Notes under the pieces: model-generated | The model's database searches: none | Told to the model about the DNA's origin: nothing | The model's input: the letters and a program-made list of their open reading frames with translations, nothing else | Translations under genes and position numbers: made by a program | IMG/VR virus record: IMGVR_UViG_3300025030_000068 | Location: 1 to 64,000 of that record | Reading direction: 5' to 3' (one strand) | Origin: a virus | Length of the DNA stretch: 64,000 nt | Shown: in pieces, positions 1,025-20,667 of the stretch | Numbering within the stretch: position 1 is the stretch's first letter | Layout of the letters: each line of letters starts with the position of its first letter

Positions 1025-1299
1025 TACTTTCCTCCTGTACGTGGTTTGATCAAAAAGAGGCGCAAGGCCAGTTCGGTATCTTCGATGGGGTTGTCCCTAT
1101 TGTCGCCCGGCCACCGCTGGCCAGAGGTCTTGTCTGGGTGCGGCAGGTGCCCGCTGTAGTCCGCCCGGACCGGGTTCTCGATGGCGATATCCCAATCGGT
1201 GTCGAGGGTGTCGTCTTCGAGCATCTCTTCCATGCCGTCGACGTCATTCGGGCCAGCCTTGTGCCCCTCGCAGGTTTCAAAGATCGTCCGTTTCTTCAT
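1024..1299 (-). CDS. Small acidic hypothetical protein
   Basis: A 91-residue acidic protein (MKKRTIFETCEGHKAG start) with no recognised domain. Its start overlaps the end of the 641-residue gene by four bases (ATGA) and its stop overlaps the next start. The tight spacing supports it as a real coupled gene in the head operon. Function unknown. Confidence 0.65.
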   Translation of the reverse strand: MKKRTIFETCEGHKAGPNDVDGMEEMLEDDTLDTDWDIAIENPVRADYSGHLPHPDKTSGQRWPGDNRDNPIEDTELALRLFLIKPRTGGK

Positions 1300-3221
1300 G
1301 CCGCTACCCTCTTTTCTGCAACGTATTTTTTGAGCCGACGCATGGTCGCCGCGTCACTCAGGTCAAGGCGTCCGCTCCAGTGGGTACCGAGGAGGAGTCC
1401 CTTGCCGAGTTCCTGCCCACCGTTCTTCATGTCGGCAATGTCCCACATCGTCTTCGGATCGTTCGAGGCGAGGATACGGCTGATGTGGCTGTGCATCTGT
1501 GCCGATATCTGGTTGACGTGGGTGGTGCGGTTCCCGGCGCGGACGTCCCGTGGTGCCCGCTTGAGTTCGTCGAGTCGATCCTTGATGCCCTCCTTGATGT
1601 TGCTCCAGTTCTTCGGCAAAAACCCGAAGCGTGCCCATGTGTAGCCGCCGACGTCGCAGTTGGCCGACACGTCAACGTGGGAGACGCCGAGGGCTTTATA
1701 GACGCCGAACGAGGCCCGGAACAGTCCCTTGGCACCGCCGTTGCCGGTGTCTCCTGCCGAAAAATAAGAGTGTGAGACCACGAGTTTGTCGTTCGTCTTG
1801 GTAAAATAACGGCTGATGCTGGTCCCGTCGTCTCCGGCGAACGAAACGTAAATGCTGTCATGTCCACTTGCTGCCATTTTGATCCCAAACTTGGTGGTGC
1901 CGCCGAAGTCGGCGATCATCGTCTTCGCCATTTGCAGCGCGGTCTCCTTGTCGACTCCCATGACGCTGTGAACAGCGGTGTCCGTGAGGGTGTCGACAAC
2001 CTCGGTGCGTCGGATGTTCTTGCCGATCTCCGCCTTGGCCTTAAACGTGTCCTCCCGCTCCAGCTTTGCCATAAGGCGAGCGGCTTCCCGGCGGATGCGG
2101 ACCATGTCTGCTGTCTGCACGTTTTGCCGAGCCCGCTGCGTTTCCGGCGTGTTCGGTACCCATGTGCCGGCTTGGTAGTTGCGGGCTTGCGTCTGCAACG
2201 TCGTGGGCTGGTCAAGATAACGGTTGGCGAGACGGTGGACTTCCGGATTCGGCCAAGGAGTGACGCGATCGTTGCTTCGTGTCCCTTCTCTGGTAACGGT
2301 CGTGCCGTCCAGTGGCACATTCGGACGCGGCACGAAGCCGAGTTGCGCTTCGGTCAGGTTCAGCGGGTTCGCCGAGTGCGGGACCGGATTGACCGGGAGG
2401 CGGCTCACAGGTGCCCGTGGTGCTCTGGGAGCACGGGGCGGTGCGGCTGAGGCAGATCGCGCCGGTTGCAGGCCCGTGTCGTTGGCGAGGTGGCGAATGT
2501 CGGTGATCTGGTCCGCCGGCAGTGTCGGTGCCCCTTCGGCCTGATGTCCCGGTATCGGCTGCCCGGCGATGTTGTAGCCGAAGTGCCGCAGCAGGGCTGC
2601 CCGGTAGTTGTCGGCTGCCGTGGTGTAGCCGTTGCTGCGGGTTGTCTGGATCGAGAGCAGCGCCTGCACCGGATCGGGGGCCGAGGTGGCGGCGGCGTGC
2701 AGCAGGTGGATCTTTCGCTGCGCCGAGAGCAGCGCCGAGTTCTGCATGTTGGAGGCGGTCAGCGTCGGCGGTACCGGGGCGGAGCCGAGGATGAGTTCGG
2801 GTTGATGGTTGGCAACAGCAGACTGCCCGGCGGCGCGGAGTGCCTGCTTGTAGTCATCGACGCGCTGGTAGTTGGTCCGGGTCCGTGACGTCGAGAAGTT
2901 GGCGATGCCATCGTAGTCGCCGCGTTCAGCCATGAGGCGCAACTGATTAACCCGCCGGGTGCAGCCGAGGTTAGACTCGCTGGTCTCCGGGAAGCGTGGC
3001 TGCGAGACCCGGCGCATGGCTGCGGCCATTGCGACCTTGGCCTGCTCCCGCGTGATCGATCCTTCTGTCGGGCCGGCCTGTGCTGATCCGACGCGGACCC
3101 AGCGGTGGACCTGATGGCCATTGACGTCGTTGACCATCCGCAGGACGTAGCCGGGGTGGTAGGCGCTGATCTGCGACTTAAAGAGGTCGTCTGGTGCCGG
3201 TCTGCGGCGGAGGAGGTACAT
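1296..3221 (-). CDS. Large head-module protein with a C-terminal acetyltransferase-like region
   Basis: A 641-residue protein opening an operon. Residues 1-330 are low-complexity, Pro- and Arg-rich with no clear domain. Residues about 350-580 look globular. They include the signature GGYTWARFGFLP after a run of beta-strand and helix, preceded by VSHVDVSANCD. This signature occurs in phage minor head or polyvalent proteins and looks GNAT-like, but that is an inference. It is the first gene after an extended -10 promoter/operator at 3263-3276, 42 nt upstream, and is followed by three coupled genes. Probably virion-associated or acting on head assembly. Catalytic activity not demonstrated from sequence. 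Confidence 0.65.
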   Translation of the reverse strand: MYLLRRRPAPDDLFKSQISAYHPGYVLRMVNDVNGHQVHRWVRVGSAQAGPTEGSITREQAKVAMAAAMRRVSQPRFPETSESNLGCTRRVNQLRLMAERGDYDGIANFSTSRTRTNYQRVDDYKQALRAAGQSAVANHQPELILGSAPVPPTLTASNMQNSALLSAQRKIHLLHAAATSAPDPVQALLSIQTTRSNGYTTAADNYRAALLRHFGYNIAGQPIPGHQAEGAPTLPADQITDIRHLANDTGLQPARSASAAPPRAPRAPRAPVSRLPVNPVPHSANPLNLTEAQLGFVPRPNVPLDGTTVTREGTRSNDRVTPWPNPEVHRLANRYLDQPTTLQTQARNYQAGTWVPNTPETQRARQNVQTADMVRIRREAARLMAKLEREDTFKAKAEIGKNIRRTEVVDTLTDTAVHSVMGVDKETALQMAKTMIADFGGTTKFGIKMAASGHDSIYVSFAGDDGTSISRYFTKTNDKLVVSHSYFSAGDTGNGGAKGLFRASFGVYKALGVSHVDVSANCDVGGYTWARFGFLPKNWSNIKEGIKDRLDELKRAPRDVRAGNRTTHVNQISAQMHSHISRILASNDPKTMWDIADMKNGGQELGKGLLLGTHWSGRLDLSDAATMRRLKKYVAEKRVAA

Positions 3222-3369: not shown

Positions 3370-4566
3370 ATGCGCTACGGGAGCGTTTGTTCAGGAATAG
3401 AAGCGGCTACAGCGGCATGGCACCCGCTCGAATGGAAGCCAGTATTTTTCAGCGAGATCGAGCCGTTTCCCTGCGCCGTTCTTGCTCACCATTATCCGCA
3501 TGTGCCGAATCTTGGCGACATGACAAAATTCAAGGAGTGGCCGGATGCAATTATCGATGTTCTCGTTGGAGGAACCCCCTGTCAATCCTATTCAGTCGCA
3601 GGACTCAGAGCGGGACTGGGTGACCAGCGTGGCAACCTCATGCTTACCTATGTGGCGATTGCTCGGAAATATCGCCCCAAGTGGGTGGTCTGGGAGAACG
3701 TCCCCGGCGTCCTTTCAAGTAATGAGGGACGAGACTTTGGAAGCCTTCTGGGGCTGCTCACCGGACAGCACGTTGTCTGCCCCCCTACCGGATGGCAAAA
3801 CAGCGGAGTCGTGCCGGGGATCAAGGGGGCTTACGGCATCGCATGGAGAATCCTTGACGCTCAGTATTTCGGAGTGGCCCAAAGACGCCGCCGTGTGTTC
3901 GTTGTCGGATATCTTGGAGACTGGCGACGTGCCGCAGCGGTTCTTTTTGAGCGAGACAGCTTGTGCGGGAATTCTGCGCCGCGCAGAGAAAAGAGGGAAG
4001 AAGTTGCCGGAACTCTTGGCGCTCGCACTTCAGGGGGTGGCTTCCCTGGATCAGATGAAGCCATGAGCGGGTATGTGCAACCTGTGCATACGACAGGCGC
4101 CGGATTCTGGCAGGAGGGTTTCGGAACGCTCCGGGCACGGGAACAGGATAGCCACGAAAATCTGATCTGCATGTCCACCGGCCAAGCCGGAGCCGAGATA
4201 GGGATAGGGATAGGGACAACCCTCAACTGCAACCACGAAGCGCCCGTCGTATGCTTCGAGTCTCGTTTTGCGCGAAACGGTCGCGGTGCTCCAAGTGAGA
4301 TTTGTCCTCCTTTGAAGGCGGAGAATGGAGGGACGGGAAAGGGTGACGGTGCTCCGCTTGTCGCCTCAGCAGCGATGCAGGTACGCCGATTAATGCCCGT
4401 CGAGTGTGAAAGATTGCAGGGATTTCCCGACCACTTCACAAACATCCCCTGGCGCAAGAAGCCGGAGTCACCGGACGGGCCGCGATACAAGGCGTTGGGC
4501 AATAGTATGGCGGTGCCGTGTATGCGCTGGATCGGGGAGAGGATAGCATTGGTTGATTCGCTATAA
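3370..4566 (+). CDS. DNA (cytosine-5) methyltransferase
   Basis: A 398-residue protein with the ordered C5-methyltransferase motifs. Motif I is YGSVCSGIEAA (residues 3-13). Motif IV is GGTPCQSYS with the catalytic Cys (about 68-76). Motif VI is WENVPGV, motif VIII is QRRRRVFVVG, and motif X is GNSMAVPCM near the C-terminus. It transfers a methyl group from SAM to cytosine in a sequence set by the variable region (about 190-330). That region contains a GIGIGTT tract encoded by a short tandem repeat. No restriction partner lies beside it, so it is likely a solitary phage enzyme for protection or regulation. It lies on the plus strand between two minus-strand head genes. AGGGAG precedes the start. 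Confidence 0.95.
   Translation: MRYGSVCSGIEAATAAWHPLEWKPVFFSEIEPFPCAVLAHHYPHVPNLGDMTKFKEWPDAIIDVLVGGTPCQSYSVAGLRAGLGDQRGNLMLTYVAIARKYRPKWVVWENVPGVLSSNEGRDFGSLLGLLTGQHVVCPPTGWQNSGVVPGIKGAYGIAWRILDAQYFGVAQRRRRVFVVGYLGDWRRAAAVLFERDSLCGNSAPRREKREEVAGTLGARTSGGGFPGSDEAMSGYVQPVHTTGAGFWQEGFGTLRAREQDSHENLICMSTGQAGAEIGIGIGTTLNCNHEAPVVCFESRFARNGRGAPSEICPPLKAENGGTGKGDGAPLVASAAMQVRRLMPVECERLQGFPDHFTNIPWRKKPESPDGPRYKALGNSMAVPCMRWIGERIALVDSL
4197..4214 (+). repeat. Three tandem GATAGG hexamers inside the methyltransferase gene
   Basis: The hexamer GATAGG occurs three times in register and encodes the Gly-Ile alternation in the target-recognition region of the C5 methyltransferase. Unit-number change would add or remove Gly-Ile pairs without a frameshift. 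Confidence 0.8.
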
Positions 4567-4603: not shown

Positions 4604-6763
4604 TTACTTGTCGTCGGCCAGTTCGATATCGGCAAGCTGAACGACCGACGTCGGCTGGATCTTCATGTTGACCAAATGTCGGACCAAAACGCGGCCACCA
4701 TCGGGATCTTCGATAAGGACCATTCTCGCCTCGGCATCGCCCTTGTCGACGACCTCTTTAAACTTGACTACCATCCCCTCCTTTAGGTGGCTCTTTGGTT
4801 CAAGCGATCGCCGTGTCTCTCTTTCGTGCCGATCAAGCACCTCTTCAAGGTCATCTTGCAGGGGTTTCGGCCATGAAGCGTGTGCTTTAAACTTTCGGAT
4901 TTTCTCAATGGTTTTGAGGTAGGCTTTCGGTGTTGCGTAGTCGGGATGTGACACGTCAATCCCAAGCCCCCCACGGCCCTTCTTGTCGTGGTGCTCGTAG
5001 ACATCATGTAGCTGCTGAACCAGTTTGGCGTGCCGGTTGTCGTCATGTTCCTTGACCGCAGTCCCGTCCTTGCGGGTGTAAGCCTTGATATGACTCTTCA
5101 ACACCTCTTCCGCAATCCCCGTGCTCTTCTTCAGATCATCGATCTCTTTCATCTCGTTCCCCTTGGCAATGATAAGGTTCTTTCCTCTGCTGGTATTTAC
5201 CCACGTCCCCTTGCCATTGTCCAGCGACTTCGCCAGCTCACCGCAGGCCGTCAGCACTTGCCGACCGGCGATTCTCCGCAGCAGCAGGCCGGGGCCGACG
5301 ATCTTCACCGCTCCCTGCGACTTGATCATGTCGAGGTGGTCGGTCAGAGCCCGCAGGAACTCCCGGAACTCGTCGATGTTGCTCTTGCCCTTGAGGCGCT
5401 TGATGGCCGCGTCGTGGACCGGCTTGATCGCCTCATGGCTCCAGTTGCGTCCGGTCGGGTGCGCGATCTCCTTGCGCTTCATGGTGGCGGCGATATCGGC
5501 GGCGCTCTGGGGCTCGACGATGTTGCCGAGGCCGTACTTGCGGTTGAGCACCTCCTGCTCGACCGGCGTCAGGGTGCCGACCAGGCCGGCGATGGCGGCC
5601 TCCCGCTCTTGGATGCGGCGGAGTTGATGCTGCATGTCCGGGTCGAAGCTGTCGATCGCCGATTGATTCTCCCACCACGGCACCGCGTTGCCGCCGTCGG
5701 CCAGTTCGTCGGCGCCGTCCTCGTCCATGTACTGCATGCGCTCCTGGTGCGCCTTGCGCTCCTTCAGGGCAGCGACGACGGCATTGCGGCCTTCCTTGGT
5801 CGCGACCTTGAAGATGCGGCTGTCTTCGGCGTCACCTGTCAGGTAGTCCTCAAAATTGTCGATATCCACCTGTGATGCCGAGGAGAGTTCTCGCCGTAGT
5901 GCCAGCGTCGCGCCCATCATGTAGTCGCTGACCAGATCGTTGTACTCGAAGTTGTCGTCGCTCATGTAGACGCCATTGACGCGGCGGACATTCCCCGCCT
6001 GGATATAGTTGGACCCGGCCAGACCAGTGACGGTGCGACTCATCATCGACTGGAACTTGTCATTGGTGATGATCTCGCCTTCTGTCAACACGGTGGCAGC
6101 ACGGGCAGCCTCTGCTCGGCGGTTGTGCTCGGCGGCGGTCAGGCGGTTGGAGGTGCCGCCGGTATTCTCGTATTTGGTGTTCTTGACCCGCTTGGCTTCC
6201 CCTTCGGTCAGGATCGCTGAGGCGTGGACCGCGTGCATCGGGGCGGCGGCAGTCTTGCCGTCTGCGGCTCCCTGCACGACGTACATATTGCGGCCCAGCG
6301 GGCGGACGATGGTCCCCTTGCGCTGCCGGGTGATCCCTTCGTCCTTGACGTGGTAGCGGACCTTGTCGCCAGTTTCGAATTTTCCGGTACCGGGGGCGGC
6401 AGTGACAGCCTCATGTGCCGGGATGAAGACCTTGGCGGTCTTGGCCGCGTCCTTCAGCGTCTGGTGCTCGATGGCGAACTCTTTGCCGATCTGCGTTTTG
6501 CCGCTGGAGTGGGTCACCGTGACGTGGTAGTGGGTGGCGTCCTTGCCGGTCACCTTCAGCGCAAACTCTTTGCCGAGGCGCGACGGCATGCCTTCCGGGG
6601 TGGCGATGATCATCTCGGCGCCGGGGCTGATCTGCGTCTTGCTGCGCAGGTGGTCGCGTTTCGGCGTTTTTGCCTTCCAGCCGATCACCGAGACCTTGCC
6701 GCTGCGATTGTTGCGTGTGAAGGCGATATGGCCGCGATTGGTCTTAGGGGCGGTGTTCGGCAT
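4604..6763 (-). CDS. 719-residue head-module protein with an internal sigma-70-like region
   Basis: Residues about 1-200 contain short beta-rich, possibly SH3/KOW-like repeats (GDKVRYHV, RKGTIVRP). Residues about 275-345 resemble sigma region 2 (NDLVSDYMMGATLAL, then a helix ending RNAVVAALKERK). Residues about 400-465 resemble sigma region 4 (LTPVEQEVLNRKYGLG, a helix-turn-helix-like stretch, and AIKRLKGK). Near residue 565 is the HIKAYTRKDG...EHDDNR motif shared with two other proteins here. The C-terminal 60 residues are basic/acidic and beta-like. It has its own promoter/operator copy 47 nt upstream and a good AAGGAG site. It could be a virion-carried polyvalent protein. Transcription activity is speculative. 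Confidence 0.7.
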   Translation of the reverse strand: MPNTAPKTNRGHIAFTRNNRSGKVSVIGWKAKTPKRDHLRSKTQISPGAEMIIATPEGMPSRLGKEFALKVTGKDATHYHVTVTHSSGKTQIGKEFAIEHQTLKDAAKTAKVFIPAHEAVTAAPGTGKFETGDKVRYHVKDEGITRQRKGTIVRPLGRNMYVVQGAADGKTAAAPMHAVHASAILTEGEAKRVKNTKYENTGGTSNRLTAAEHNRRAEAARAATVLTEGEIITNDKFQSMMSRTVTGLAGSNYIQAGNVRRVNGVYMSDDNFEYNDLVSDYMMGATLALRRELSSASQVDIDNFEDYLTGDAEDSRIFKVATKEGRNAVVAALKERKAHQERMQYMDEDGADELADGGNAVPWWENQSAIDSFDPDMQHQLRRIQEREAAIAGLVGTLTPVEQEVLNRKYGLGNIVEPQSAADIAATMKRKEIAHPTGRNWSHEAIKPVHDAAIKRLKGKSNIDEFREFLRALTDHLDMIKSQGAVKIVGPGLLLRRIAGRQVLTACGELAKSLDNGKGTWVNTSRGKNLIIAKGNEMKEIDDLKKSTGIAEEVLKSHIKAYTRKDGTAVKEHDDNRHAKLVQQLHDVYEHHDKKGRGGLGIDVSHPDYATPKAYLKTIEKIRKFKAHASWPKPLQDDLEEVLDRHERETRRSLEPKSHLKEGMVVKFKEVVDKGDAEARMVLIEDPDGGRVLVRHLVNMKIQPTSVVQLADIELADDK

Positions 6764-7008: not shown

Positions 7009-7320
7009 ATGATTGCAAAAGTCTATTACCGTCGCTATGCCGCTTCCGAGCGCATGCTCTTTGCCGCCGATCCGAAACTCACTCTTGCCGATATCGCCTC
7101 CGAGCAGTTCGCTCTGGTCACTGATCTTCGCGCTGGCCGCCTTGAAGATATCTACCGGCATATGCAGGGCGAAGTCTGGTCACCGAACGGCGAGGCCCGC
7201 GACCTGATCCGCTCCCTCGGTCTTCATCATACTTCGATGTCCGTTGGCGATGTCGTCGTCGACGAGAACGGTACCGGCTGGCAGGTGGACGGCTGCGGCT
7301 TTGCGCGGGTAGGTGCGTGA
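7009..7320 (+). CDS. Small phage/plasmid protein with SVGDVVVDE signature
   Basis: A 103-residue protein. The C-terminal half, with TSMSVGDVVVDENGTGWQV then GCGFARV, matches a small beta-rich protein common in conjugative plasmids and phages, often annotated only as a DUF. The N-terminal half (YYRRYAASERMLFAADP) is not characterised. It is the first gene of the plus-strand accessory operon, and its stop overlaps the next start (TGATG). Function unknown. Confidence 0.7.
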   Translation: MIAKVYYRRYAASERMLFAADPKLTLADIASEQFALVTDLRAGRLEDIYRHMQGEVWSPNGEARDLIRSLGLHHTSMSVGDVVVDENGTGWQVDGCGFARVGA

Positions 7321-7532
7321 TGACGACGACCTGCCATAACTGCGCTGCCACTTCCGACTCCATCGACGCGGCCATTGATGCCGGCTGGATTCCTTCGTAT
7401 TGGGAGGCGCTGCCGGCGCCAGAATCTGCCGACGGGCGCTGGACGGAGATCGACGGCCCGTTCTGCCCGGACTGTATTGGACTTCTGGGGCTGGTCTTTT
7501 GTGCCGATACCGGCGATTACGAAAAGCGCTAG
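7320..7532 (+). CDS. Small zinc-ribbon protein
   Basis: A 70-residue protein with CHNC near the N-terminus and CPDC near residue 53, a likely four-Cys zinc site. I take ATG 7320, which overlaps the preceding stop, rather than the GTG one codon earlier. Function unknown. One of many tiny metal-binding proteins in this block. Confidence 0.65.
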   Translation: MTTTCHNCAATSDSIDAAIDAGWIPSYWEALPAPESADGRWTEIDGPFCPDCIGLLGLVFCADTGDYEKR

Positions 7533-7541
7533 GAGGCCATC

Positions 7542-7685
7542 ATGGAACACGTCTGCAACGGCTGCCTCGAATCCTTCTCCGCCAGTCTCTCCCGGTGTCC
7601 GCATTGCGGCAGCGACGATTGGGACTGCGTGGAGACGTCCGAACTTGAACTGCGCCGCTCCGGTGGCCTTGACTTTGATCTTTAA
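7542..7685 (+). CDS. 47-residue zinc-ribbon protein
   Basis: Too short to be listed by a length-filtered caller. ATG 7542 follows AGGAGG by five bases. The product begins MEHVCNGCLESF and carries CNGC and CPHC pairs separated by ten residues (a compact rubredoxin-like knuckle), then an acidic tail. It ends two bases into the next Shine-Dalgarno region. Function unknown. Confidence 0.65.
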   Translation: MEHVCNGCLESFSASLSRCPHCGSDDWDCVETSELELRRSGGLDFDL

Positions 7686-7696
7686 GGAGATTGCCA

Positions 7697-7912
7697 GTGA
7701 CGCCAGAAGAGATTATCAAAAACATTGACGGGCGGGAATTCAGTAAGCAGCGCGAAATTCTGACGCGGATTATTGACTACGAATGCTACCGCCCAGATGC
7801 AGACGAACTTGAGTTTCTAGAGGGGCTCCGCAACCTGCTCGACACCGTTGCCGACTGTGCTGCGGACGATTATGGAATCCAGAGCCGCTATGGGAGTGAC
7901 TCTGACTGCTGA
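7697..7912 (+). CDS. Small hypothetical protein
   Basis: A 71-residue helical protein from GTG 7697, chosen because AAGGAG (7684-7689) lies seven bases upstream. A TTG at 7691 would be too close to that site. No domain recognised. The stop is followed directly by a strong 12-bp hairpin. Confidence 0.55.
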   Translation: MTPEEIIKNIDGREFSKQREILTRIIDYECYRPDADELEFLEGLRNLLDTVADCAADDYGIQSRYGSDSDC

Positions 7913-7918
7913 TCTCCT

Positions 7919-7947
7919 GCGCCTGTATGCCCTTCGCATGCAGGCGC
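7919..7947 (+). other. Strong RNA hairpin after 7697-7912
   Basis: GCGCCTGTATGC pairs with GCATGCAGGCGC around a five-base loop, giving a 12-bp stem with one G-T pair. No U-tract follows, so it may stabilise or process the transcript rather than terminate it. A pyrimidine-rich stretch with CTTATC repeats fills the remaining space to 8035. Confidence 0.6.
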
Positions 7948-8035
7948 ATTACTCGTTGCATCATTCCGCAATGCCCCTTCTCTTGATCCTTCTCCTTATC
8001 CTTATCCCTATCTTAAACCAAGAAAGGTACTCTCC

Positions 8036-8509
8036 ATGAAGATGCGACTCCGTCCTCGTTACTACTGCGACTTCTGCAAGAAGGCCAGTGGTTCCCCCTC
8101 GGCCATGAAGCGGCACGAGCAGGGCTGCACGGCAAATCCCGATCGCTTCTGTGGCCTCTGTGCCCGTGTCGGTGAAGAGCAGAAGCCTCTGGCGGATTTG
8201 GTTGCTGCGCTGGATTGTGGCGATGCAGCCGGGCTCAAAGCCGTTCGTGATCTCTCCGGGAATTGCCCGACCTGTATCCTTGCGGCGATTCGTGCATCTA
8301 AATTACAAACACCGGGGGAGATGGATAAATTTGAAAACGGCGAGGAACGGTGGATAGAGGGTTTCCACGTCGAGTTCGAGTTCCGCGACGAGTTGAAGTC
8401 GTGGTGGACGGACGTCAATAACTCCGAGCGCGAGTCTGGGTGCTATCCGGATCGTCTTCCCTCCTCCTCTGTTGAATTCCTGAAAGGTCTCATCGCCCAT
8501 GCTGAATAA
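8036..8509 (+). CDS. Zinc-finger hypothetical protein
   Basis: A 157-residue protein. The N-terminus YYCDFCKKASGSPSAMKRHEQGC is a C2HC-like finger. A second group of cysteines (FCGLCARV, then NCPTC) follows. The C-terminal half is acidic (WIEGFHVEFEFRDELKSWW). Its 3' end overlaps the methyltransferase start by 11 bases, so the two are probably co-translated. No defined family. May bind nucleic acid. Confidence 0.65.
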   Translation: MKMRLRPRYYCDFCKKASGSPSAMKRHEQGCTANPDRFCGLCARVGEEQKPLADLVAALDCGDAAGLKAVRDLSGNCPTCILAAIRASKLQTPGEMDKFENGEERWIEGFHVEFEFRDELKSWWTDVNNSERESGCYPDRLPSSSVEFLKGLIAHAE

Positions 8510-10136
8510 TCCCAATTTCTACCCGACCCCTCCCCTGCTCGCGTCCCGCATGATCTCGAAGCTCAAAGGCCGGCCCAAGCGGGTGCTGGAGCCGTCCGCT
8601 GGCAAGGGCGATATCGTCAAGGCCATCGTCTCTCGCTTCTCGCATACCTCGCAGCCAGAGGTTTCCTGCATCGAGATCGACCCGGTGTTGCAGGCAACCC
8701 TGCGCGGCGACGGGCACCGGCTGATCGATACCGACTTCCTCGCCTACTCTGGAGCCGACAAGTTCGATGCAATTATCGCGAACCCTCCGTTCGACGCTGG
8801 CGACCTGCATCTTCTGAAAGCGATCGAGATCATGTATCGCGGCGAGATCGTCTTCCTGCTCAATGCCGAGACGCTGCGGAATCCGCATACCAATACCCGG
8901 AAGCTGCTGGCGCGGAAGCTGGAGGAGCTGGGCGCCTCCATCGAGTACCTGCCGAATCAGTTTGCCGGTGCCGAGCGGCGGACTGGCGTCGAGGTGGCGC
9001 TGATTCATATCCAGATCGACCAGTCCGTCTCCGATGATCTCTTTGCCGGAGTTGACGACTTCTCCGCCCGCTGTACCGAGAAGGTCGAGGAGAAGCACGA
9101 GCTGTCGACCGGGCGCACTCTGGAGGAGCTGGTCGCCGACTACAACGAGGTGGTCCGCGTCGGCACCGAGACCGTCGTCGCCTTCTATCGCAACTTCAAG
9201 AAAGTCGGCGGCTTCCTGCGCATGACTGATGCCGTCGAGAAGCTACGGATTTCGTCGTCGTCGGATGTGACCGGCATGATGCAGGACGCGGTCAATAAAC
9301 TGCTGATCGATGTCCGTGCCTGCTTCTGGCGGAAGACGCTGGACTTGAAGGAGGTCCGCAATCGTCTGACGACCAAGAAGGCTGCCGAGTTTGAACATGC
9401 TATGGCCGATCGCTGCTACATGGATTTCACTGAGTCGAACGTGCGCCAGTTCGTGCTGAACCTCATGGACTCCTACGAGCAGACGCTGACCGACGCCATC
9501 GTCGATATCTTCGACCTCTTCACGGTGCGGCATTGCTGGGGCGAGAGCGGCGTCCTTGAGAAAAACGTGCATTATTTTAACGGCTGGAAGACGAACAAGT
9601 CCTTCAAGGTGGGCCGGCGCGTCGTCGTGCCGATCCGGGGCGGCTGCTGCTCGACGGCGTTCTTTGACTATGGCCGCTGGCAGCTGGCGTATCAGGCCAA
9701 GGACCAGTTGCGCGATATTGATCTGGTGGCGTCTTACTTCTCCGGGCTCCGGGATTACACCTCCGAGGCACCAAACGTGGCATTCAGCGCCAACAAGCAT
9801 TACCTGTCCATGTCGGCTGCGCTCATGGCGGCGTTCAGCGCTGGTTCGAAGGCCGATCGGCACTCTGGCATCGAGGCGGGGCACTTCACCGTGACCGTCC
9901 ACAAGAAGGGGACCATCCATATCACCTTCAACGACGAGGACGTGCTGCGGCGCTTCAACTTCATTGCCTGTCGTGGCAAGGGCTGGCTGCCGTGCGACTA
10001 CGGCAAGAAGCGCTATCAGGAGCTGTCGGCACCGGAGAGGGCGGTCGTGGACGCCTTTGAGGGCGAGCGGTCCTATACCGCTGCGCTGGGGCGCCCGGTC
10101 TTTGCTCCCTCGGCGCTGTTGCAGATCGCGGCGTAA
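8499..10136 (+). CDS. N6-adenine-type methyltransferase with DUF4942 C-terminal region
   Basis: A 545-residue protein. Residues about 1-180 are a class I SAM methyltransferase: VLEPSAGKGDIV (motif I), an acidic SAM-binding strand SCIEIDP, and the catalytic ANPPF (motif IV). The C-terminal part matches the DUF4942-type extension seen in phage and plasmid enzymes (GTIHITFNDEDVLRRFN then KGWLPCDYG). It probably methylates adenine in DNA, giving resistance to host restriction. No endonuclease is adjacent. It overlaps the preceding zinc-finger gene. Target sequence unknown. Confidence 0.9.
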   Translation: MLNNPNFYPTPPLLASRMISKLKGRPKRVLEPSAGKGDIVKAIVSRFSHTSQPEVSCIEIDPVLQATLRGDGHRLIDTDFLAYSGADKFDAIIANPPFDAGDLHLLKAIEIMYRGEIVFLLNAETLRNPHTNTRKLLARKLEELGASIEYLPNQFAGAERRTGVEVALIHIQIDQSVSDDLFAGVDDFSARCTEKVEEKHELSTGRTLEELVADYNEVVRVGTETVVAFYRNFKKVGGFLRMTDAVEKLRISSSSDVTGMMQDAVNKLLIDVRACFWRKTLDLKEVRNRLTTKKAAEFEHAMADRCYMDFTESNVRQFVLNLMDSYEQTLTDAIVDIFDLFTVRHCWGESGVLEKNVHYFNGWKTNKSFKVGRRVVVPIRGGCCSTAFFDYGRWQLAYQAKDQLRDIDLVASYFSGLRDYTSEAPNVAFSANKHYLSMSAALMAAFSAGSKADRHSGIEAGHFTVTVHKKGTIHITFNDEDVLRRFNFIACRGKGWLPCDYGKKRYQELSAPERAVVDAFEGERSYTAALGRPVFAPSALLQIAA

Positions 10137-10194
10137 TTCCGGTTGCTTCCGTCTCTCCCTTTTGATACTATCTCAAACCTTGGAGGTGTCCCCT

Positions 10195-10404
10195 ATGTCG
10201 AATCTCTCCGCTTCTCGCCACCGGCCCGCGACCGCTGATCTCGTTCAGCGCGACCGGGTGATTGTTTATTCCTCTTCCTCCTCCCCGGTGTTCCATCTGG
10301 GGGGAGGTTTTTCTGCCGAACAGGCCGACGATATTAGCGACTACTGCGGGGCGCATCTGCTTTCGGCTGCCGAGTTCGTCGATATCGTGACTGGAGGTGT
10401 GTGA
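10195..10404 (+). CDS. Small hypothetical protein
   Basis: A 69-residue protein starting at ATG 10195 after GGAGG. It contains RDRVIVYSSSSSPVFHLGGGFS and an AEFVDIV tail, with no recognised family. Its stop overlaps the next start (TGATG). The coupled spacing supports it. Confidence 0.6.
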   Translation: MSNLSASRHRPATADLVQRDRVIVYSSSSSPVFHLGGGFSAEQADDISDYCGAHLLSAAEFVDIVTGGV

Positions 10405-10628
10405 TGGACTACGAAGGAAGGCTTTACGGTAAGCTGCGCGGTGTCTGCATTCCTCTTGTGCAGACCACGGAAGACATTGAAAAATTACAGAGGGACCGGG
10501 ACGAGTTGCTTGCGGCTCTGGAGCGTGTTGTCGAATACCATGTTCCTAAAATTAACCCTCTGTCCGATGCCGTGATCTTGTCTGCCCGTGCCGTCATCGA
10601 CAAGATGGTAATTAAGGAGGTCGCATGA
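10404..10628 (+). CDS. Small helical hypothetical protein
   Basis: A 74-residue protein, mostly helical (EDIEKLQRDRDELLAALERV suggests a coiled coil), starting at ATG 10404 in the preceding stop. It shares an IEKLQRDRDELL-like helix with the next gene (IELQRQRDHLMLAL), so the two may be distant duplicates. Function unknown. Confidence 0.6.
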   Translation: MDYEGRLYGKLRGVCIPLVQTTEDIEKLQRDRDELLAALERVVEYHVPKINPLSDAVILSARAVIDKMVIKEVA

Positions 10629-10924
10629 AACGTCAAGAATTTATCGATGCCGTGACCGATGCCGGCTGGGTGCCTCGCAATGACGCGCAATTCGCACGGA
10701 TCGGGTTTCTCTGGAAGGAACTGTTTCCGAAGGATGCCGAGATTGAGCATCTTTCTGATGTGGAAGACCGTGCGATTGAACTGCAACGGCAACGCGACCA
10801 TTTGATGTTGGCGCTGAAACCGTTCGCCGTTTTCGCGTGCGAGGTCGCTCCAGGTGAGGATGCTTGCAGCTGTCATAACTGTCGGGCAAAGTATGTTATT
10901 GCCAAGATCAAGGAGGACGCATGA
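10625..10924 (+). CDS. Small hypothetical protein with C-terminal Cys pair
   Basis: A 99-residue protein overlapping the previous gene by four bases. A helix resembling that of the previous gene (about 58-72) is followed by EDACSCHNCRAKYVIAKIKE, a possible metal site. Function unknown. Confidence 0.6.
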   Translation: MKRQEFIDAVTDAGWVPRNDAQFARIGFLWKELFPKDAEIEHLSDVEDRAIELQRQRDHLMLALKPFAVFACEVAPGEDACSCHNCRAKYVIAKIKEDA

Positions 10925-11301
10925 AGATCACCTCCCGCGTCCTCACCGATGCCGTCCTGGCCGCCAACCAGTCTGTTCTTGCCGATTACCCTTCCGGGCT
11001 GCGCGTCGTCGGTCCTGACGGCAACGGCCTCTATTCGATGCAACTGATCCCGCGCAAGACCGGGGCGCATCCGCCGGTCATCCTTTGCTACAGCCCGCCG
11101 CGTGAGGCATACGTCGCGATGCAGGCGGTGCTGGCTGCGCTGCCGGTGGTCCGGGGGATCGCCGATAATCTCTTGTCCTGCGCTGCTGTTCGTCTTGCCG
11201 ATGTCGCCCGGCGCCCGGAAGGGTGGACGAAGGCCGAGCATGACCGTTCTCTTGATGCCGCTGTTGGTTCGGTGCGGTTCCTGACGGGAGGTGTCCCATG
11301 A
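10921..11301 (+). CDS. Hypothetical protein
   Basis: A 126-residue protein (MKITSRVLTDAVLAANQ start) overlapping its neighbours by four bases on each side. It contains YSMQLIPRKTGAHPPVILC and a helical C-terminal half. No recognised domain. Confidence 0.6.
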   Translation: MKITSRVLTDAVLAANQSVLADYPSGLRVVGPDGNGLYSMQLIPRKTGAHPPVILCYSPPREAYVAMQAVLAALPVVRGIADNLLSCAAVRLADVARRPEGWTKAEHDRSLDAAVGSVRFLTGGVP

Positions 11302-11633
11302 TCGCCGGGCATCGAGCATATCTGTCAGGCCCCATGACGAATATTTCCGATTTCAACCGCCCACAGTTCTTCCTGGCTGAGTCGCTCCTCCTCGCCTCCG
11401 GTGCCGCCTCGGTCTTCAACCCGGCCCGGCATCCCGACGGCCTGACGTGGGAGGAGTATATGGCGCTGGATATCGCCGGTATGCACGATTGCACTGCCTT
11501 CGTTCGCCTGCCGGGGTGGGAGGCGTCCCGTGGCGCCCGGATCGAGAACGCTCTGGCTGCCGATCGGGGCCTGCTGGTCCTCGACTTGCCTCCTTGTGTC
11601 CTGAGTGTTCCCTTTATCAAAACCACCAGTTAG
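11298..11633 (+). CDS. DUF4406-type nucleoside deoxyribosyltransferase-like protein
   Basis: A 111-residue protein with the characteristic layout YLSGPMTN...DFNRPQF, NPARHPDGLTWEEYMALDIA, DCTAFVRLPGWEASRGARIE, and a final LLVLDL strand. This is the Rossmann-like fold of the DUF4406 family, related to nucleoside 2-deoxyribosyltransferases. It may handle modified nucleotides or act as a regulator. Activity not shown. Its last codons run into operator copy 3 and leader repeat R3, so those sites are partly coding. Confidence 0.85.
   Translation: MIAGHRAYLSGPMTNISDFNRPQFFLAESLLLASGAASVFNPARHPDGLTWEEYMALDIAGMHDCTAFVRLPGWEASRGARIENALAADRGLLVLDLPPCVLSVPFIKTTS
11605..11620 (-). promoter_or_regulatory. 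Dispersed operator copy 3
   Basis: GTGTTCCCTTTATCAA lies inside the end of the DUF4406 gene and abuts leader repeat R3. The promoter orientation faces left, against the gene, where no minus-strand gene begins nearby. A stoperator-like role fits better than promoter use. Confidence 0.6.
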
Positions 11634-11709
11634 TGCGGGTTTCTTTTCTCTATTGAAGAGGCTGATCTCTCCCACTAACTGATGCGCCAGCAGGCGCTTG
11701 GAGGTTCCC
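11619..11709 (+). promoter_or_regulatory. Leader repeat R3 with two further hairpins
   Basis: AAAACCACCAGTTAGTGC pairs its AAACC with GGTTT, followed by CTTTTCTCTATTGAAG. An AGAG/CTCT hairpin and GCGCC-AGCA-GGCGC (near 11684-11697) follow, then GGAGG seven bases before ATG 11710. The upstream stop TAG lies within the repeat. Confidence 0.7.
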
Positions 11710-12141
11710 ATGTTTAATGCCAAAGCGTTCTATCTTCGCCAACTCCGTTCAACCGTCGACGCGCTGGCTCTGGCCAAGGAGGAGGCTGCCGTCGAGATCG
11801 CCAAAGACCCGATCCACTTCATGAGCTGGGGCGGCAACGTCTCGTTCGTCGATGCCGGTGGCCACAAGTGTAGCTGCAACGTCGTCGTGCAGGCGTTCAA
11901 GGCCCGCATCGCTATCTCCCTTCTGGACGCCGAGGCTAATGGCAATCTCATTGAGTCCGCCAAGCTCCTGCGCGAGCGGATGATCGACACGCAGCTGCGC
12001 TTCTCCGGCGGCACGTCAACCAGCGCCTTCTCGAATGCCGTGGATATGCTGGAGGCGGATGCTCGCCGCGACCTGCTTTGCAACTTTGGACCGCTGACTG
12101 CCGAGGCGATTCGTTCGCTTGAAGAGGAGGTCGCCCCATGA
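11710..12141 (+). CDS. Hypothetical protein
   Basis: A 143-residue protein from ATG 11710, which has a strong GGAGG. An in-frame codon four positions earlier is less well placed. It contains FMSWGGNVSFVDAGGHKCSCNV and a helical C-terminal part. No family recognised. It is the first gene after leader R3 and overlaps the next gene by four bases. Confidence 0.65.
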   Translation: MFNAKAFYLRQLRSTVDALALAKEEAAVEIAKDPIHFMSWGGNVSFVDAGGHKCSCNVVVQAFKARIAISLLDAEANGNLIESAKLLRERMIDTQLRFSGGTSTSAFSNAVDMLEADARRDLLCNFGPLTAEAIRSLEEEVAP

Positions 12142-12452
12142 AAGGTCTTATCTGCTCCATCATGAAAGCCAAGGACTTCCCCGACTGCTCCTGCGACGGC
12201 GTGTCGTCCCGGTTCGCGCAGGTCACTCTCTGCGGTCCCGATATCGAAGGCGTCTTTGAGCCGTCCCCGGACGCGCCGGAGGTCAACCTCGTGAAACGCA
12301 ATCTGTTCCGGGATGAAATCTATGTCCATGCCCGGCCCGCCGAAATTCCCGCCGGCACTCACTCTGCGATGGGTGGCTGCTTCATCTGGTCGTGCGATGC
12401 CCGCTTTCCGTCGTCGCAGCCGATCCCGCTTCACGACCGAGTCGAAAATTAA
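12138..12452 (+). CDS. Hypothetical protein
   Basis: A 104-residue protein (MKGLICSIMKAKDFPDCSCDG start). The pattern of Cys near the N-terminus and a beta-rich body (FAQVTLCGPDIEGVFEP) is not recognised. It may be a small structural or regulatory protein. ATGA overlap with the preceding gene. Confidence 0.6.
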   Translation: MKGLICSIMKAKDFPDCSCDGVSSRFAQVTLCGPDIEGVFEPSPDAPEVNLVKRNLFRDEIYVHARPAEIPAGTHSAMGGCFIWSCDARFPSSQPIPLHDRVEN

Positions 12453-12466
12453 TTCTGGAGGAAGTT

Positions 12467-13739: not shown

Positions 13740-13791
13740 TTTTTTCCTGTGTTTGCTCTCCTTTTGTCACCACCTTTTGTGATATCATCGC

Positions 13792-13812
13792 GCCCGGCCA
13801 CTTGTGCCGGGC
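13792..13812 (+). terminator. Hairpin, possible weak terminator
   Basis: GCCCGGC pairs with GCCGGGC around CACTTGT. Only a pyrimidine run (CTTCCCTCTC) follows, so termination would be weak. It lies between 13434-13739 and 13867-14649. Confidence 0.4.
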
Positions 13813-13866
13813 CTTCCCTCTCAGTGCCCCTGCGGCCTCTTCCTTTCCCCTGCCAAGGAGTTTCCC

Positions 13867-15240: not shown

Positions 15241-15566
15241 AAGGTAACACCTACGCTGTCGTCATCCGAATTGAGACAATCAGGAAGCGCCTCACCGACG
15301 GTGGGGCGCTAAACTGCGGCGATATTGCCGCTCTCTTCGACGTCTCGCTGAAGACAGCCCAGCGCGACATTGAGTTCCTTCGCTCGTTTTACGGCCTCAC
15401 CATTGACTATGACGCGAGTCGTCGCGCACTGTACTTGGCTGCTCCTGCCCCACCTTATCCGCCTCCGCTGGACAGCGATGTATCTTCTTCTGTCCGTGGT
15501 CGGTATCCGAAAAAGCCGGAGCGCAATGCTCCGGCCTTTTTTGCGTTTTTTACTTATTTTTCGTAA
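15237..15566 (+). CDS. Small HTH regulator, DeoR-like N-terminus
   Basis: A 109-residue protein. Residues about 8-55 look like a DeoR/HTH_11-type winged helix (IETIRKRLTDGGALNCGDIA, then LFDVSLKTAQRDIEFLR). It probably binds DNA. The start is taken as TTG 15237, overlapping the previous stop, with AAGGTG just upstream. No ATG is available. The last 20 residues are encoded by the terminator hairpin, so the natural protein may be poorly conserved there. Confidence 0.6.
   Translation: MKGNTYAVVIRIETIRKRLTDGGALNCGDIAALFDVSLKTAQRDIEFLRSFYGLTIDYDASRRALYLAAPAPPYPPPLDSDVSSSVRGRYPKKPERNAPAFFAFFTYFS
15515..15541. terminator. Bidirectional intrinsic terminator
   Basis: GCCGGAGC pairs with GCTCCGGC around GCAAT, preceded by five A and followed by CTTTTTT. 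It ends the plus-strand accessory block and can also stop the convergent MuF transcript. Confidence 0.9.
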
Positions 15567-15756
15567 GGTGTTCCTTGTACTCCGTCCTTACTGCCAAAAT
15601 GCCCTTTGGATTTTCTCCCTTTCTTTGTGCCTTCAACCATAGGCCGATAAGTGTGTCGATATTGTAAATCACGCCGACCGCTTTTTTCCCCGCCAGCATT
15701 TTCGCCACTACTCGGTGATGCCCATCGATAACCATCGGCCTCTGAATCTTTATCAT
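15550..15756 (-). pseudogene. ParB-like domain fragment in another frame at the end of the MuF protein
   Basis: This 68-codon frame begins at ATG 15756. Its early codons give PMVIDGHHRVVAK, the hallmark of ParB/Srx-like phosphatase/nuclease domains. The upstream half of that domain (IPLKDVDP...GTAIPPVLV) is in the 718-residue frame, which is +1 shifted relative to it. Either a separate overlapping gene, a frameshifted domain, or programmed frameshifting would explain this. See the finding. Confidence 0.6.
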
Positions 15757-17710
15757 CCTTCAACCCTTCTACGAGAACCGGCGGGATAGCGGTGCCCTTC
15801 CTTTCTTCCGCAGCCAATTCCTGAATCTTCTTGTCACTCCCCGGCATAACCCCTTTTTTATCGAACTCCTTATAATCCTCCCAGTCGTCCCACTCTGAAG
15901 GATCGACGTCTTTAAGAGGGATATGGTCGTGGATGATCCTCTTTGGCTGAATCTTGGAACTGAAATGTTCGTCAAGCATTTCCGCTACGTATTTATCCAG
16001 AAATGCGGTTGCCTTCAATCGCTTTGCGTCTGCATGCATCTGCTCTGTGTTGATCATTTTATGTGGTGGAAGTTTTGTCGGCTGCGCGGGTGGGACATAA
16101 TGCGTCTCCCCCAGCACCGTCCGGGGCTCGCCGCCTCTGATCTCCGCCTCGATCCGCTTCCGGCTGGCGGCTGCCGTCTCTTTCGGCTTCCGGGGCTTGC
16201 TGGCGGCCTTCTTCCCTTCCTGTGCAGCATCCTTCCCCGGCTCGACCTTCTTCTTCGCCACCGTCCGCAGCAGCGCCATCGGGTGCCCGATGCGGCCCTT
16301 CGGCTTCTTGCCGTCCCCGGTGGCTGACTTCCTCTTCCGCAGCAGCGCGACGAGTGCGTGGTGGTGACCTGCGGGCGCTACCGGCGTCTTCTTGCTGCGG
16401 CTGTCGTCGTGTTCGTTGACGACGGTGCCGTCCTTGCGCGTGTAGGTTTTGACGTGGGACTTGGCGATCGTCGCATTGCCGCGATTCTTCTTCTGCAGGT
16501 ACCACGGCTCGTGCCCGGAAAAAGGAAACGGGCCAAGGCAAGCACAGAACGGGTGGATCAGCCCGGCCACCGCCTTAAGCGTCTCCTGCCCATCCTCACG
16601 GCCTCCCGGCACCGCCTTGCCGCCCTTCACCGGGTGCGCCTTGCGACCGATGTTCATGCCGTTGCCGATCAGCTCCGCCAGGTCGAAGATGCGCGGCGTG
16701 CCGTCCTCCTCCAGGTATAGGTGTTTGCATTGGGCGCAGGCCGTCGGCAGCGGCATCTTGTAGACGAGTTGCTGCGGCCCGTGCTGTTCCAGTATCTGCA
16801 TCGCCTGCCCCTGCTTCTGGGCGTCGGTGATCTCGAAGAAGGCGACCCGGTCCCAGTCGCGGCTCTTGTCGTCCATCGCGTGATACAGCTCCGAGCTGAA
16901 TCCCTGCCAGGTGTTGACCTGCCGCTCCGGGATGGCGATGCCAAGCGCCTCCTTCTTCTCCCGGTCCAGCACCTTCGCCTGCAGCCGCTGTTCGTGGAAG
17001 TCGATCGCCATGTTGCGGATGATGGTGCGGTTGCGGTCGGCGATGATCTCTCCAGCCAGCTTCGCCGTGTCGTCACCGAGCGCCGTGATGTAGTTGGCGG
17101 TCTGCTGCTCGGCGATGGCGATCGCGTGGATATCCGGCGTCAGCAGCGGCATGGTGGCTGCCAGCTTCATGATCTCGGCAAAACTGCCGCCCTGCTCGAC
17201 CGCCTGCCATGCCCGGCCAAAGGTGAAGGCGTTGTGGATGATGCGGCCTTCGGTCCCGACCGCCAGCGCGAAGTCCTGCGGGGTGACGTCCGGCGCGATC
17301 CAGCCTTCCGCCTGCCAGCGTGTGAGGAGGTCTTGCGGCGGCGTGTAGTCTCCCTGTATCTGCGCGGCGATGAATCCGAAGCGGTCCCGGACTACCTGCA
17401 GCAGATCGGCGATCTCCTCTTTCGTCAGGGGACGGGTTGGGCCGATGGACTTGATCAGCTCCGCTCCCTGTAGCCGACGCTCGACCGCTCGCTTGATATC
17501 GATGGCGGCCAGCCCGTACTCATGCCGGAACTGTCGCAGCAGTTCGCGAGTCGGCGCGTCCCGTGGCTCCTTCGGGCCGTCGCAGCTACAGCCGGCGGCC
17601 TTGAGTAGCGCGTCCGCGACTTCGGCCTCGATCCCCTGTGCGGAGACGAGGCCGAGGACGGCTTTCTGGAGCTGGTCGTTGGTCAGGTTGTGGCTGATTT
17701 TAAGTTTCAT
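15554..17710 (-). CDS. MuF / SPP1 gp7-type head morphogenesis protein with C-terminal extension
   Basis: A 718-residue protein downstream of the portal, as usual for minor head proteins. Residues about 210-405 are the MuF-type domain, with the TACAQCKHLY cysteine pair and the terminal LIHPFCACLG. Near residue 422 is the shared HVKTYTRKDGTVVNEHDDSR motif. A basic Lys/Pro/Ala-rich linker follows. The C-terminus begins a ParB-like domain (IPLKDVDPSEW to AIPPVLV) whose DGHHR half lies in another frame. In related phages, extensions of MuF proteins carry toxins or enzymes ejected with DNA. Head attachment to the portal is inferred from family. Confidence 0.85.
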   Translation of the reverse strand: MKLKISHNLTNDQLQKAVLGLVSAQGIEAEVADALLKAAGCSCDGPKEPRDAPTRELLRQFRHEYGLAAIDIKRAVERRLQGAELIKSIGPTRPLTKEEIADLLQVVRDRFGFIAAQIQGDYTPPQDLLTRWQAEGWIAPDVTPQDFALAVGTEGRIIHNAFTFGRAWQAVEQGGSFAEIMKLAATMPLLTPDIHAIAIAEQQTANYITALGDDTAKLAGEIIADRNRTIIRNMAIDFHEQRLQAKVLDREKKEALGIAIPERQVNTWQGFSSELYHAMDDKSRDWDRVAFFEITDAQKQGQAMQILEQHGPQQLVYKMPLPTACAQCKHLYLEEDGTPRIFDLAELIGNGMNIGRKAHPVKGGKAVPGGREDGQETLKAVAGLIHPFCACLGPFPFSGHEPWYLQKKNRGNATIAKSHVKTYTRKDGTVVNEHDDSRSKKTPVAPAGHHHALVALLRKRKSATGDGKKPKGRIGHPMALLRTVAKKKVEPGKDAAQEGKKAASKPRKPKETAAASRKRIEAEIRGGEPRTVLGETHYVPPAQPTKLPPHKMINTEQMHADAKRLKATAFLDKYVAEMLDEHFSSKIQPKRIIHDHIPLKDVDPSEWDDWEDYKEFDKKGVMPGSDKKIQELAAEERKGTAIPPVLVEGLKDDKDSEADGYRWASPSSGENAGGEKSGRRDLQYRHTYRPMVEGTKKGRKSKGHFGSKDGVQGTPYEK

Positions 17711-18912: not shown

Positions 18913-20667
18913 CTATTCTCCCACTTCGATGGTGATAAATTTCACGTCGCGAGGCTGCGACTTTTTCTTGAATTTCTTGGCCGGGATCGGTCCGATCATG
19001 TTCCCGGCGGCGTCGATTGGTAGCGACTTTTGGACATCCTCGTCTTGGCTGTCGTCCTGCTGGTCGTCGCCCGGATCGCCTTGCGGCTGACCCAGCATCT
19101 GGAAGACTGAGAGATAATTGGTAATCGGGACATCGCTCGGATAATTCCACGGGTTTGAATCATCCAGAGGATCGCCAATCGGTGCCTTGCCCTCCTCCAT
19201 CCGCGCCTCGTTCTTTGTCATCCATTTACTGACACGAGCGGTCCTTAAGTCTACTGTTAACTTCTCGTCGTCCTTCTCAATGCCGGTGACGATCAGCTTT
19301 AGGTCGTTGTAGCGGGGTTTGATGATCGCGTCCGTGAGCCAGCTGGTCATGTCCTCGATGGACGGTATCAGGCTCAACTCCTTGTTGAACTCGATCTCGT
19401 CGATCGGGCTGGCGTTACCGAGGCTGTTTCCTCCGGCACCGGAGTCCATCTGGAGGTTTAGTGTGCTCGGATGTGCGCCGTAGGCGGCTGCCTTCAGCAT
19501 GATCAGCAGCCGGACGAATTCGTTGAACAGCATATCCTTCGGCGTGTCGCGCAGCTTGTGCGCCTCGATCTTGAAGCCGTCAACGCTGCCGCTGGGGATG
19601 ACCGGCAGGCGCCAGTAATTGCCGGCGCCGTGCGTGTCGCCGATCAGCATCTGCTTGAACGCCTGCAACCCTTCCTTGTCGAAGTCGCCGGCCACCGACA
19701 GGATCGCCTCCGGGTAGTTGGTCTTGAACATCTCCCGGTTGAAGCTCCATGCAGCCATCAAAGTAGCTGTAATTTCAAGGGAAACCTCTAAACGAGAAAT
19801 TCCGTAACCAAATGTGTTGATTTCGTCGCTGGGGTTGGACAGGTGGATGCTGAGCTCGTCGGAGGTGAAGGCGTCAACGAGGAGGCCGTCGACGATCTGG
19901 ACGTAGCTGGCCTTGGTCAGGTCGAAGCCGGTTGCCGCTGACATCTGGTAGGCGGTGGCGGCATTGACGGTCTTCTTGCCGCCGTTCTTCTTGGCGTTCT
20001 TGGCGGCCCACTCCTTCATCGCCTCATCGACGTTCTTGACCGTCTCGCCCGGCAGCGCGTAGAAAGCGGCGTAGCCTTTGCCGTCGGCTCGCTTCATCCG
20101 GCGGATACACTTGCGATCTATGATCAGCTCGGTCTTGGTCAGGGAGGCGACCAGTTCCTTAATGCGGCTGTGGGGACGGACGCGGTTTGGATAGAACTGA
20201 GTGTACTTCTCCGGACACGGGTCATCGATCAGCACTTCCATTTCACGGCAGCGGTCGTCGATCTCCTTGCTCCCCTTGAACGTCGGATCGTCGTGGCGGA
20301 TGTGAACCACCTTGTACCCGACCTTCGCCGCGTCGTAGGTATGCTTCCAGATGCGTTTCATCTGGTCGACTCTGGCGCGTATCAGGATGGCATCGACGAA
20401 CGACTGCCGGGATGCCTGGTAGAGGGTGCGGAAGCCCGGCGTTCCCTGCGGCTTCTCCCTGGCGCCGTAGAGGGACATATTTTGCAGCATGTATTTGGAG
20501 AAGAGGGTGCCGCGTTTCTCCTCCTCTTCAGCTGCAATCTTGCGGGATTCTTCTGCGACCGCCTTGTTCAGCGAGTCAATGCTCCGCGAAGAGACCAGAA
20601 GTCCCGCCGGAGTCTCCATCATGCCGCCCGCGCGTGGTAGCGCTTTTTTCAGATCGTCTTTGTCCAT
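18913..20667 (-). CDS. Portal protein
   Basis: A 584-residue protein with the size and order of phage portals (terL, portal, MuF). Features include an early helical collar region, a middle with VYVQIVDGLLVDAF-like strand, the long-helix region (MLFNEFVRLLIMLKAAAYGAHPSTLN), and an acidic C-terminal tail rich in Asp and Gln. It forms the dodecameric vertex through which DNA is packaged. It begins its own transcript from operator/promoter copy 4, 23 nt upstream. No strong ribosome binding site precedes 20667. A Met pair 15 codons in is an alternative start. The neighbouring upstream frame overlaps its 5' end. Confidence 0.85.
   Translation of the reverse strand: MDKDDLKKALPRAGGMMETPAGLLVSSRSIDSLNKAVAEESRKIAAEEEEKRGTLFSKYMLQNMSLYGAREKPQGTPGFRTLYQASRQSFVDAILIRARVDQMKRIWKHTYDAAKVGYKVVHIRHDDPTFKGSKEIDDRCREMEVLIDDPCPEKYTQFYPNRVRPHSRIKELVASLTKTELIIDRKCIRRMKRADGKGYAAFYALPGETVKNVDEAMKEWAAKNAKKNGGKKTVNAATAYQMSAATGFDLTKASYVQIVDGLLVDAFTSDELSIHLSNPSDEINTFGYGISRLEVSLEITATLMAAWSFNREMFKTNYPEAILSVAGDFDKEGLQAFKQMLIGDTHGAGNYWRLPVIPSGSVDGFKIEAHKLRDTPKDMLFNEFVRLLIMLKAAAYGAHPSTLNLQMDSGAGGNSLGNASPIDEIEFNKELSLIPSIEDMTSWLTDAIIKPRYNDLKLIVTGIEKDDEKLTVDLRTARVSKWMTKNEARMEEGKAPIGDPLDDSNPWNYPSDVPITNYLSVFQMLGQPQGDPGDDQQDDSQDEDVQKSLPIDAAGNMIGPIPAKKFKKKSQPRDVKFITIEVGE

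Follow-up and report, generated by a model that had tools for sequence, protein, structure and literature searches.

A sigma-like module in a phage head-operon protein and in its polyvalent relatives

Introduction

Control of early transcription by a factor carried in the virion has been described for phages N4 and phiKZ, which package an RNA polymerase (vRNAP), and for T4, which packages the RNA polymerase modifier Alt (PMC4496689; PMC5512222). Iyer et al. (2017) have surveyed polyvalent proteins, which occur in phages and in conjugative elements, and have predicted that these proteins are injected and jump-start transcription (PMC5512222). The main text of that survey makes no mention of sigma factors. 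Phage sigma factors have been detected together with particles by mass spectrometry in fRuSau02 (Sig; PMC5618024) and in SU10 (gp32; PMC4281155), and the authors of the fRuSau02 study considered a structural role of Sig unlikely (PMC5618024). Searches of the open-licence literature yielded no description of a sigma-like domain within a polyvalent protein or a head protein.

The DNA analysed here, referred to as the window, comprises bases 1-64000 of an 89,928-base virus record. An initial annotation had proposed that a 719-residue open reading frame at 4604-6763 encodes a sigma-70-like region, with counterparts of regions 2 and 4, inside a head-module protein. The frame is present and lies on the minus strand, which had been left unstated, and all four peptides quoted in support are located in its product, P0001: NDLVSDYMMGATLAL at residues 275-289, RNAVVAALKERK at 326-337, LTPVEQEVLNRKYGLG at 398-413 and AIKRLKGK at 453-460. 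The core idea proves correct for the most part, with less certainty where region 2 is concerned. We do not claim that the module belongs to the sigma-70 family.

Genomic context

The late genes on the minus strand of the window follow the order terminase, portal, a 479-aa protein encoded between the portal and MuF-like genes, MuF-like protein, P0001 and a 641-aa protein (Table 1). The opposite end of the record has, on the same strand as P0001, genes for a protease-like protein and for a capsid of the SU10 type. If the record were closed into a circle, the usual order portal, MuF, P0001, protease and capsid would be obtained. This joining of the two ends of a linear record is suggested by the gene order, and it is supported by record L035, in which the genes for a MuF-like protein, a 2023-aa polyvalent protein, an InPase protein and a protease-like protein are contiguous and in agreeing order. 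In L001 and in L035 the polyvalent protein has a C-terminal part that corresponds to the 641-aa protein. The assignment of P0001 to a head module is thus borne out by the portal, MuF-like, protease-like and SU10-type capsid genes that accompany it.

Two plus-strand cassettes (7009-15566 and 3370-4566) break up the minus-strand head operon, and one of them contains a C5 cytosine methyltransferase gene. Three classes of large terminase (Terminase_3, GpA and Terminase_6) occur among phages whose portals are at least 91% identical, the genes compared being that of the window (Table 1), L011:3322-5328 and L010:175-1746. All three of these proteins end in a common Cys-containing tail, HEWxQxGxGxxYxC...GIAV...PQEVA...GWKECRKP, which looks like a docking tail that was retained through terminase swaps.

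Table 1. Features of P0001 and of the surrounding late genes in the window
Feature	Position	Strand	Residues or length	Basis or remark
P0001, whole ORF, head-operon protein with the module	4604..6763	-	719 aa	
SH3-like KGTIV domain	6209..6379	-	129-185	Ahead of the sigma-like module; named by sequence pattern only
Sigma-2-like helical part	5729..6076	-	230-345	AlphaFold helices, Foldseek; sequence test at chance level
Sigma-4-like helix-turn-helix (HTH)	5384..5620	-	382-460	hhalign and Smith-Waterman against sigma-70 region 4
Turn insertion in HTH, KRKEIAHPTGRN	5444..5479	-	429-440	Resembles HTH_62 and serine-recombinase HTHs
Tag, KSHIKAYTRKDGTAVKEHDDNRH	5030..5098	-	556-578	Common to other head-operon proteins
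Exchangeable C-terminal payload	4604..5029	-	579-719 and stop codon	Unrelated in L001
Large terminase gene	23468-24823	-		First of the minus-strand late genes
Portal protein (PF04860)	18913..20667	-		Anchors the head operon
MuF-like head protein	15554..17710	-		Position and pattern, without family match; tag at 16462
Next head-operon protein	1296..3221	-	641 aa	Gene order

Domain architecture

The SH3-like KGTIV domain of P0001 is kept in L034 at an overall identity of 30%, and the stand-alone module genes described below also start with it. In the sigma-2-like part a beta-hairpin is inserted after the first helix. The tag follows the pattern KSH[VI][KR]xYxRxxxGxxVxEHDDxR and within the window is confined to head-operon proteins (positions 18826, 18475, 16462 and 5098, all on the minus strand); it is also present in L001, L010, L011, L017, L018, L034, L035, L042 and L048. 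The tag could be a capsid-targeting or processing signal. L001 and P0001 are 87% identical in their best segment and are alike up to residue 577, after which the C-termini are unrelated, the break point lying directly behind the tag. The payload motif LHDVYEHHDKKGRGGLGIDVSHPDYATPKAYLKT lies within residues ~580-650 of P0001 and is found as well in L035:324-2675 and at the C-terminus of L042; it recurs in other head-operon proteins of the relatives as a second exchangeable unit.

Distribution of the module

P0001 alone matched no family in sequence searches, and family searches of its own sequence revealed no catalytic polyvalent domains. Scans for close homologues gave matches limited to the window's own phage and L001. 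Relatives of P0001 were not found in scans of genome contigs, nor was a homologue found by tblastn of plasmids and phages, and a terminase scan of genome contigs returned only terminase genes outside any matching head operon. The family was reached through the tag: viral contigs were scanned for it, and a two-sequence profile was then run against the records so obtained, yielding a distant homologue at E 3.7e-38. Two further scans expanded the family to ten members including that of the window, the nine others being encoded by uncultivated phages and 23-84% identical to the window's member over the module.

The module is placed near the N-terminus of open reading frames of about 1500-2000 codons in L034, L035, L042, L043 and L048. 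Its fusion partners in L034, L035 and L048 are the polyvalent domains ddrB-ParB (E 1e-35 to 1e-37 in the members scanned), InPase, SNF2 and ART-PolyVal, of which the SNF2 helicase and ART-PolyVal (E 1.1e-20) are added in the L048 fusion. A HAD-like part is among the further domains of these long frames. The neighbourhoods that were read are head operons. On account of these fusions and surroundings of its homologues, the guess that P0001 is a virion-associated polyvalent protein is supported, and it may be regarded as probable.

Stand-alone genes of about 345 residues carry the module in L044, L045 and L046, where they run antiparallel to the tail genes around them and directly follow a Bro-N/ORF6C antirepressor gene (Bro-N being assigned by profile scan in L044 and L046 and by eye only in L045). 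L045 and L046 each have a KilA-N gene downstream. Phage 3300025030_000067 carries both the fused and the stand-alone form. Because the module occurs in polyvalent proteins and also beside DNA-binding regulators, we infer that it has a regulatory, DNA-directed role. The cassettes with the stand-alone module in L044 and L046 also hold a gene (L044:5985-6572 and L046:5934-6578) with a fragment similar to the portal of this phage group, ECNREMFKTNYPEQVLA, which suggests that such cassettes were born from head genes.

Similarity to sigma region 4

Searches of Pfam, NCBIfam, PHROG and PDB sequences with the whole protein and with fragments gave no sigma match, and no match to Sigma70_r2 or Sigma70_r4 above the curated cut-off was found. 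The best weak match in the phage collection (E 0.4) was to region 4 of a bacterial sigma-E on a mis-filed contig; it is suggestive only and is not independent evidence, since this same search picked it. The contig, L006:1-1810 (MT837880.1), is filed as 'Bacteriophage sp.' (UNVERIFIED) and holds the end of a sigma-E gene followed by a sigma-G-like gene; it is a bacterial contig rather than a phage. A match to GP100, a replication-module protein, was treated as chance, as were weak matches to XopD, Phd antitoxin and APH, each single and far under the cut-offs.

Region 4 was tested by profile-profile comparison with sigma-70 region 4, represented by E. coli sigma factors together with sporulation, SigB and SigA sequences. 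The profile of the window and L001 scored 26.3, and the maximum among shuffled columns was 15.4 (0/60). All ten members together scored 23.3, with a shuffle maximum of 14.8. Smith-Waterman comparison of the window sequence gave a score that none of 300 shuffles reached, and the same result (0/300) was obtained independently with L048, which is 41% identical and had no part in raising the hypothesis. After removal of the 10-12-residue turn insertion, the clade of the window, L001 and L048 scored 45.0 (Prob 96, E 2.8e-9) against 13.3; the unspliced scores are the test and the spliced score is a description only, because the splice was chosen after the alignment had been viewed. Against size-matched profiles the spliced clade reached z 11-15 with sigma-70-type region 4, 5.7 with LuxR-type HTHs and 5.9 with ECF sigma-4, and in unspliced form RpoD and RpoS (z 7.9) ranked above LuxR (z 3.9). 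The similarity originally noticed in region 4 is therefore beyond chance, and there is strong support for reading this region as a sigma-4 HTH of the primary type that contains an inserted turn of 10-12 residues.

A structural relic, which had been offered as an alternative, is less likely. The window and L001 are 99% identical over the sigma-4 stretch, with a dN/dS of about 0.06; the regions ahead of the variable linker gave 0.16-0.21. Such purifying selection on the HTH argues against decay.

In the seven members outside the clade of the window, L001 and L048 the sigma-4 resemblance is weak and is surpassed by that to HTH_62 or recombinase HTHs, HTH_62 being the better match for some of them (E 1.9e-4 in L034, which is under the curated cut-off, the best score being 21.8 bits against 27). 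PF07508 (Recombinase) was matched at 14.4 against a curated cut-off of 21.1, and weak Recombinase-type matches occur in four members at the same place as the HTH. Judged by sequence comparison, the HTH is real, sigma-4-like in the window's clade and recombinase-like in its turn. The HTH_62 and Recombinase-type matches fit the leading alternative, that the region is a DNA-binding unit only, whose HTH with a recombinase-like turn would bind phage DNA (in packaging, in protection of the entering end or in repression) and whose preceding helices would be an unrelated bundle with no contact to RNA polymerase. This alternative would also account for the lack of sequence similarity in region 2. It is nevertheless considered unlikely, as the window clade is nearest to region 4 of RpoD and RpoS, and sigma factors, not recombinases, top both lists of structural matches over most of the module.

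Similarity to sigma region 2 and predicted structure

The sequence of region 2 gave a different result. With all members, its score was reached by 26/60 and 37/60 shuffles, and with the insertions spliced out 12-14 of 80 shuffles still reached it, which is chance level. The best core alignment, itself non-significant, places NDLVSDYMMG over LDLIQEGNIG of RpoD, the register of the initial annotation. In this alignment V320, K323 and E324 face Y430, W433 and W434 of RpoD, the aromatics of region 2.3 being absent, and in the weak core alignment an invariant S occupies the position of Q406. In RpoD, the bases of the -10 element are flipped and held by Y430, W433 and W434 in promoter melting, and Q406 is a core-binding residue. 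With V, K, E and S at these positions, a role as co-regulator or appropriator is more likely than the activity of a full sigma factor.

The AlphaFold model made from a 10-sequence alignment had a mean pLDDT of 70 and a pTM of 0.49. Most helices in both parts had pLDDT 67-91, and the linker between the parts was of low confidence. In the region-2 part the helices were 235-251, 272-295 and 316-347, with a block pLDDT of 67-91 except in the last block. All 50 matches listed by Foldseek against PDB were sigma subunits of RNA polymerase (best E 6e-3, prob up to 0.99), in alignments of 236-347 columns that span most of the module; they belong to one homologous family and therefore count as one hit. 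In a viral structure library the top three matches were a SigK-like protein, the sigma factor of Vibrio phage VAP7 and an ECF-type sigma factor. Most of the top named matches there were sigma factors, and a sigma-4-only protein ranked lower. The Foldseek E-values were above 0.001, and since TM-scores were 0.2-0.3 and rmsd exceeded 20 A there is no single rigid superposition. As a control, an earlier poor model from two sequences, unusable in itself, did not reproduce the sigma-dominated picture.

The central region is thus predicted to fold like a sigma factor as a whole. The structural comparison that had been proposed as a check has come out in favour of sigma factors as the top match in two libraries, but at E-values above 0.001 and with no rigid superposition. 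The claim for region 2 is not supported by sequence similarity, but sigma factors are what the fold predicted for the entire module brings up.

A sigma-like fold from which the promoter-melting aromatics are missing would also be expected of a sigma mimic, a decoy or appropriator that would sit on the RNA polymerase surfaces where sigma binds, open no promoters and shut off host transcription, likened to AsiA and Alc of T4 in effect and not in descent. One polyvalent relative also has an ADP-ribosyltransferase, and T4 Alt belongs to this class of enzymes. The recognition helix of the HTH, however, is the best-conserved part between the window and L001, which suggests that DNA binding matters, and such a mimic appears rather unlikely.

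Proposed function

The reading favoured here, tentatively, is that of a virion-delivered, sigma-70-derived module that binds DNA and RNA polymerase and steers early transcription as a co-regulator. Residues ~130-475 would comprise an SH3-like domain followed by a two-part module, namely a sigma-2-like part made of helices and a sigma-4 HTH of the primary type whose turn is enlarged. The module serves as a building block of the polyvalent proteins in this phage group, and it is probable that these proteins are packaged into the head and leave it together with the DNA, as operon position, shared tag and fusion partners suggest. In the infected cell, the HTH would most likely contact DNA and the sigma-like surfaces may contact the host RNA polymerase, which would thereby be biased toward phage early promoters. 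Since region 2.3 lacks the promoter-melting aromatics, the module probably acts as a co-regulator and not as a sigma factor in full. The stronger proposal of an injected sigma, in which a domain packaged in polyvalent ejection proteins recruits host RNA polymerase to early promoters immediately after DNA entry, in place of an injected polymerase, is possible but doubtful.

That the protein is instead expressed late to regulate genes of the phage itself, not delivered with the virion and merely located in the head operon, is very unlikely given the fusions to polyvalent domains and a tag common to portal-adjacent and MuF-like proteins, although the stand-alone copies, which lie in small regulatory cassettes within the tail operon, imply that no polyvalent carrier is needed for the module to work.

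If the favoured reading is true, virion-borne control would have a third route, through a packaged sigma-like domain, beside a packaged polymerase and a packaged polymerase modifier, and early promoter choice would be explained without prior expression. Constructs of residues 220-475 and the 345-aa stand-alone genes offer testable material.

Comparison with known systems

The relatives of P0001 resemble the polyvalent proteins of the survey (PMC5512222) in being very long multidomain head-operon proteins with ddrB-ParB, InPase, SNF2 and ART-PolyVal domains, whereas P0001 has the module but lacks the catalytic domains. The sigma-like module seems to extend what the survey described, and the list of polyvalent-protein domains would thus gain a sigma-like component. 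With the sigma-70 family (PF04542, PF04545) the module shares an HTH nearest to that of RpoD and RpoS and a predicted fold that matches over most of its length. It differs in scoring below the curated cut-offs, in the inserted HTH turn, in a hairpin and a helix inserted in the region-2 part, in the absence of the aromatics that melt the -10 element, and in its location in a head-operon protein. Several members share with HTH_62 and the Recombinase HTH (PF20552, PF07508) the turn and helix IAxxLNRxxxPxxxGxxW, but the matches are below the cut-offs, the recombinase catalytic domain is lacking, and the window clade is closer to sigma-4.

The proposed purpose is like that of the N4 and phiKZ vRNAPs and of T4 Alt, which are a polymerase or a modifying enzyme and not a sigma-like domain. 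Sig of fRuSau02 and gp32 of SU10 are free-standing sigma factors, whereas here the module lies inside a head-operon protein. Overall, packaged polymerases and free phage sigma factors were already known, and what is new, judged against the open-licence literature, is that polyvalent proteins can include a sigma-like module among their parts.
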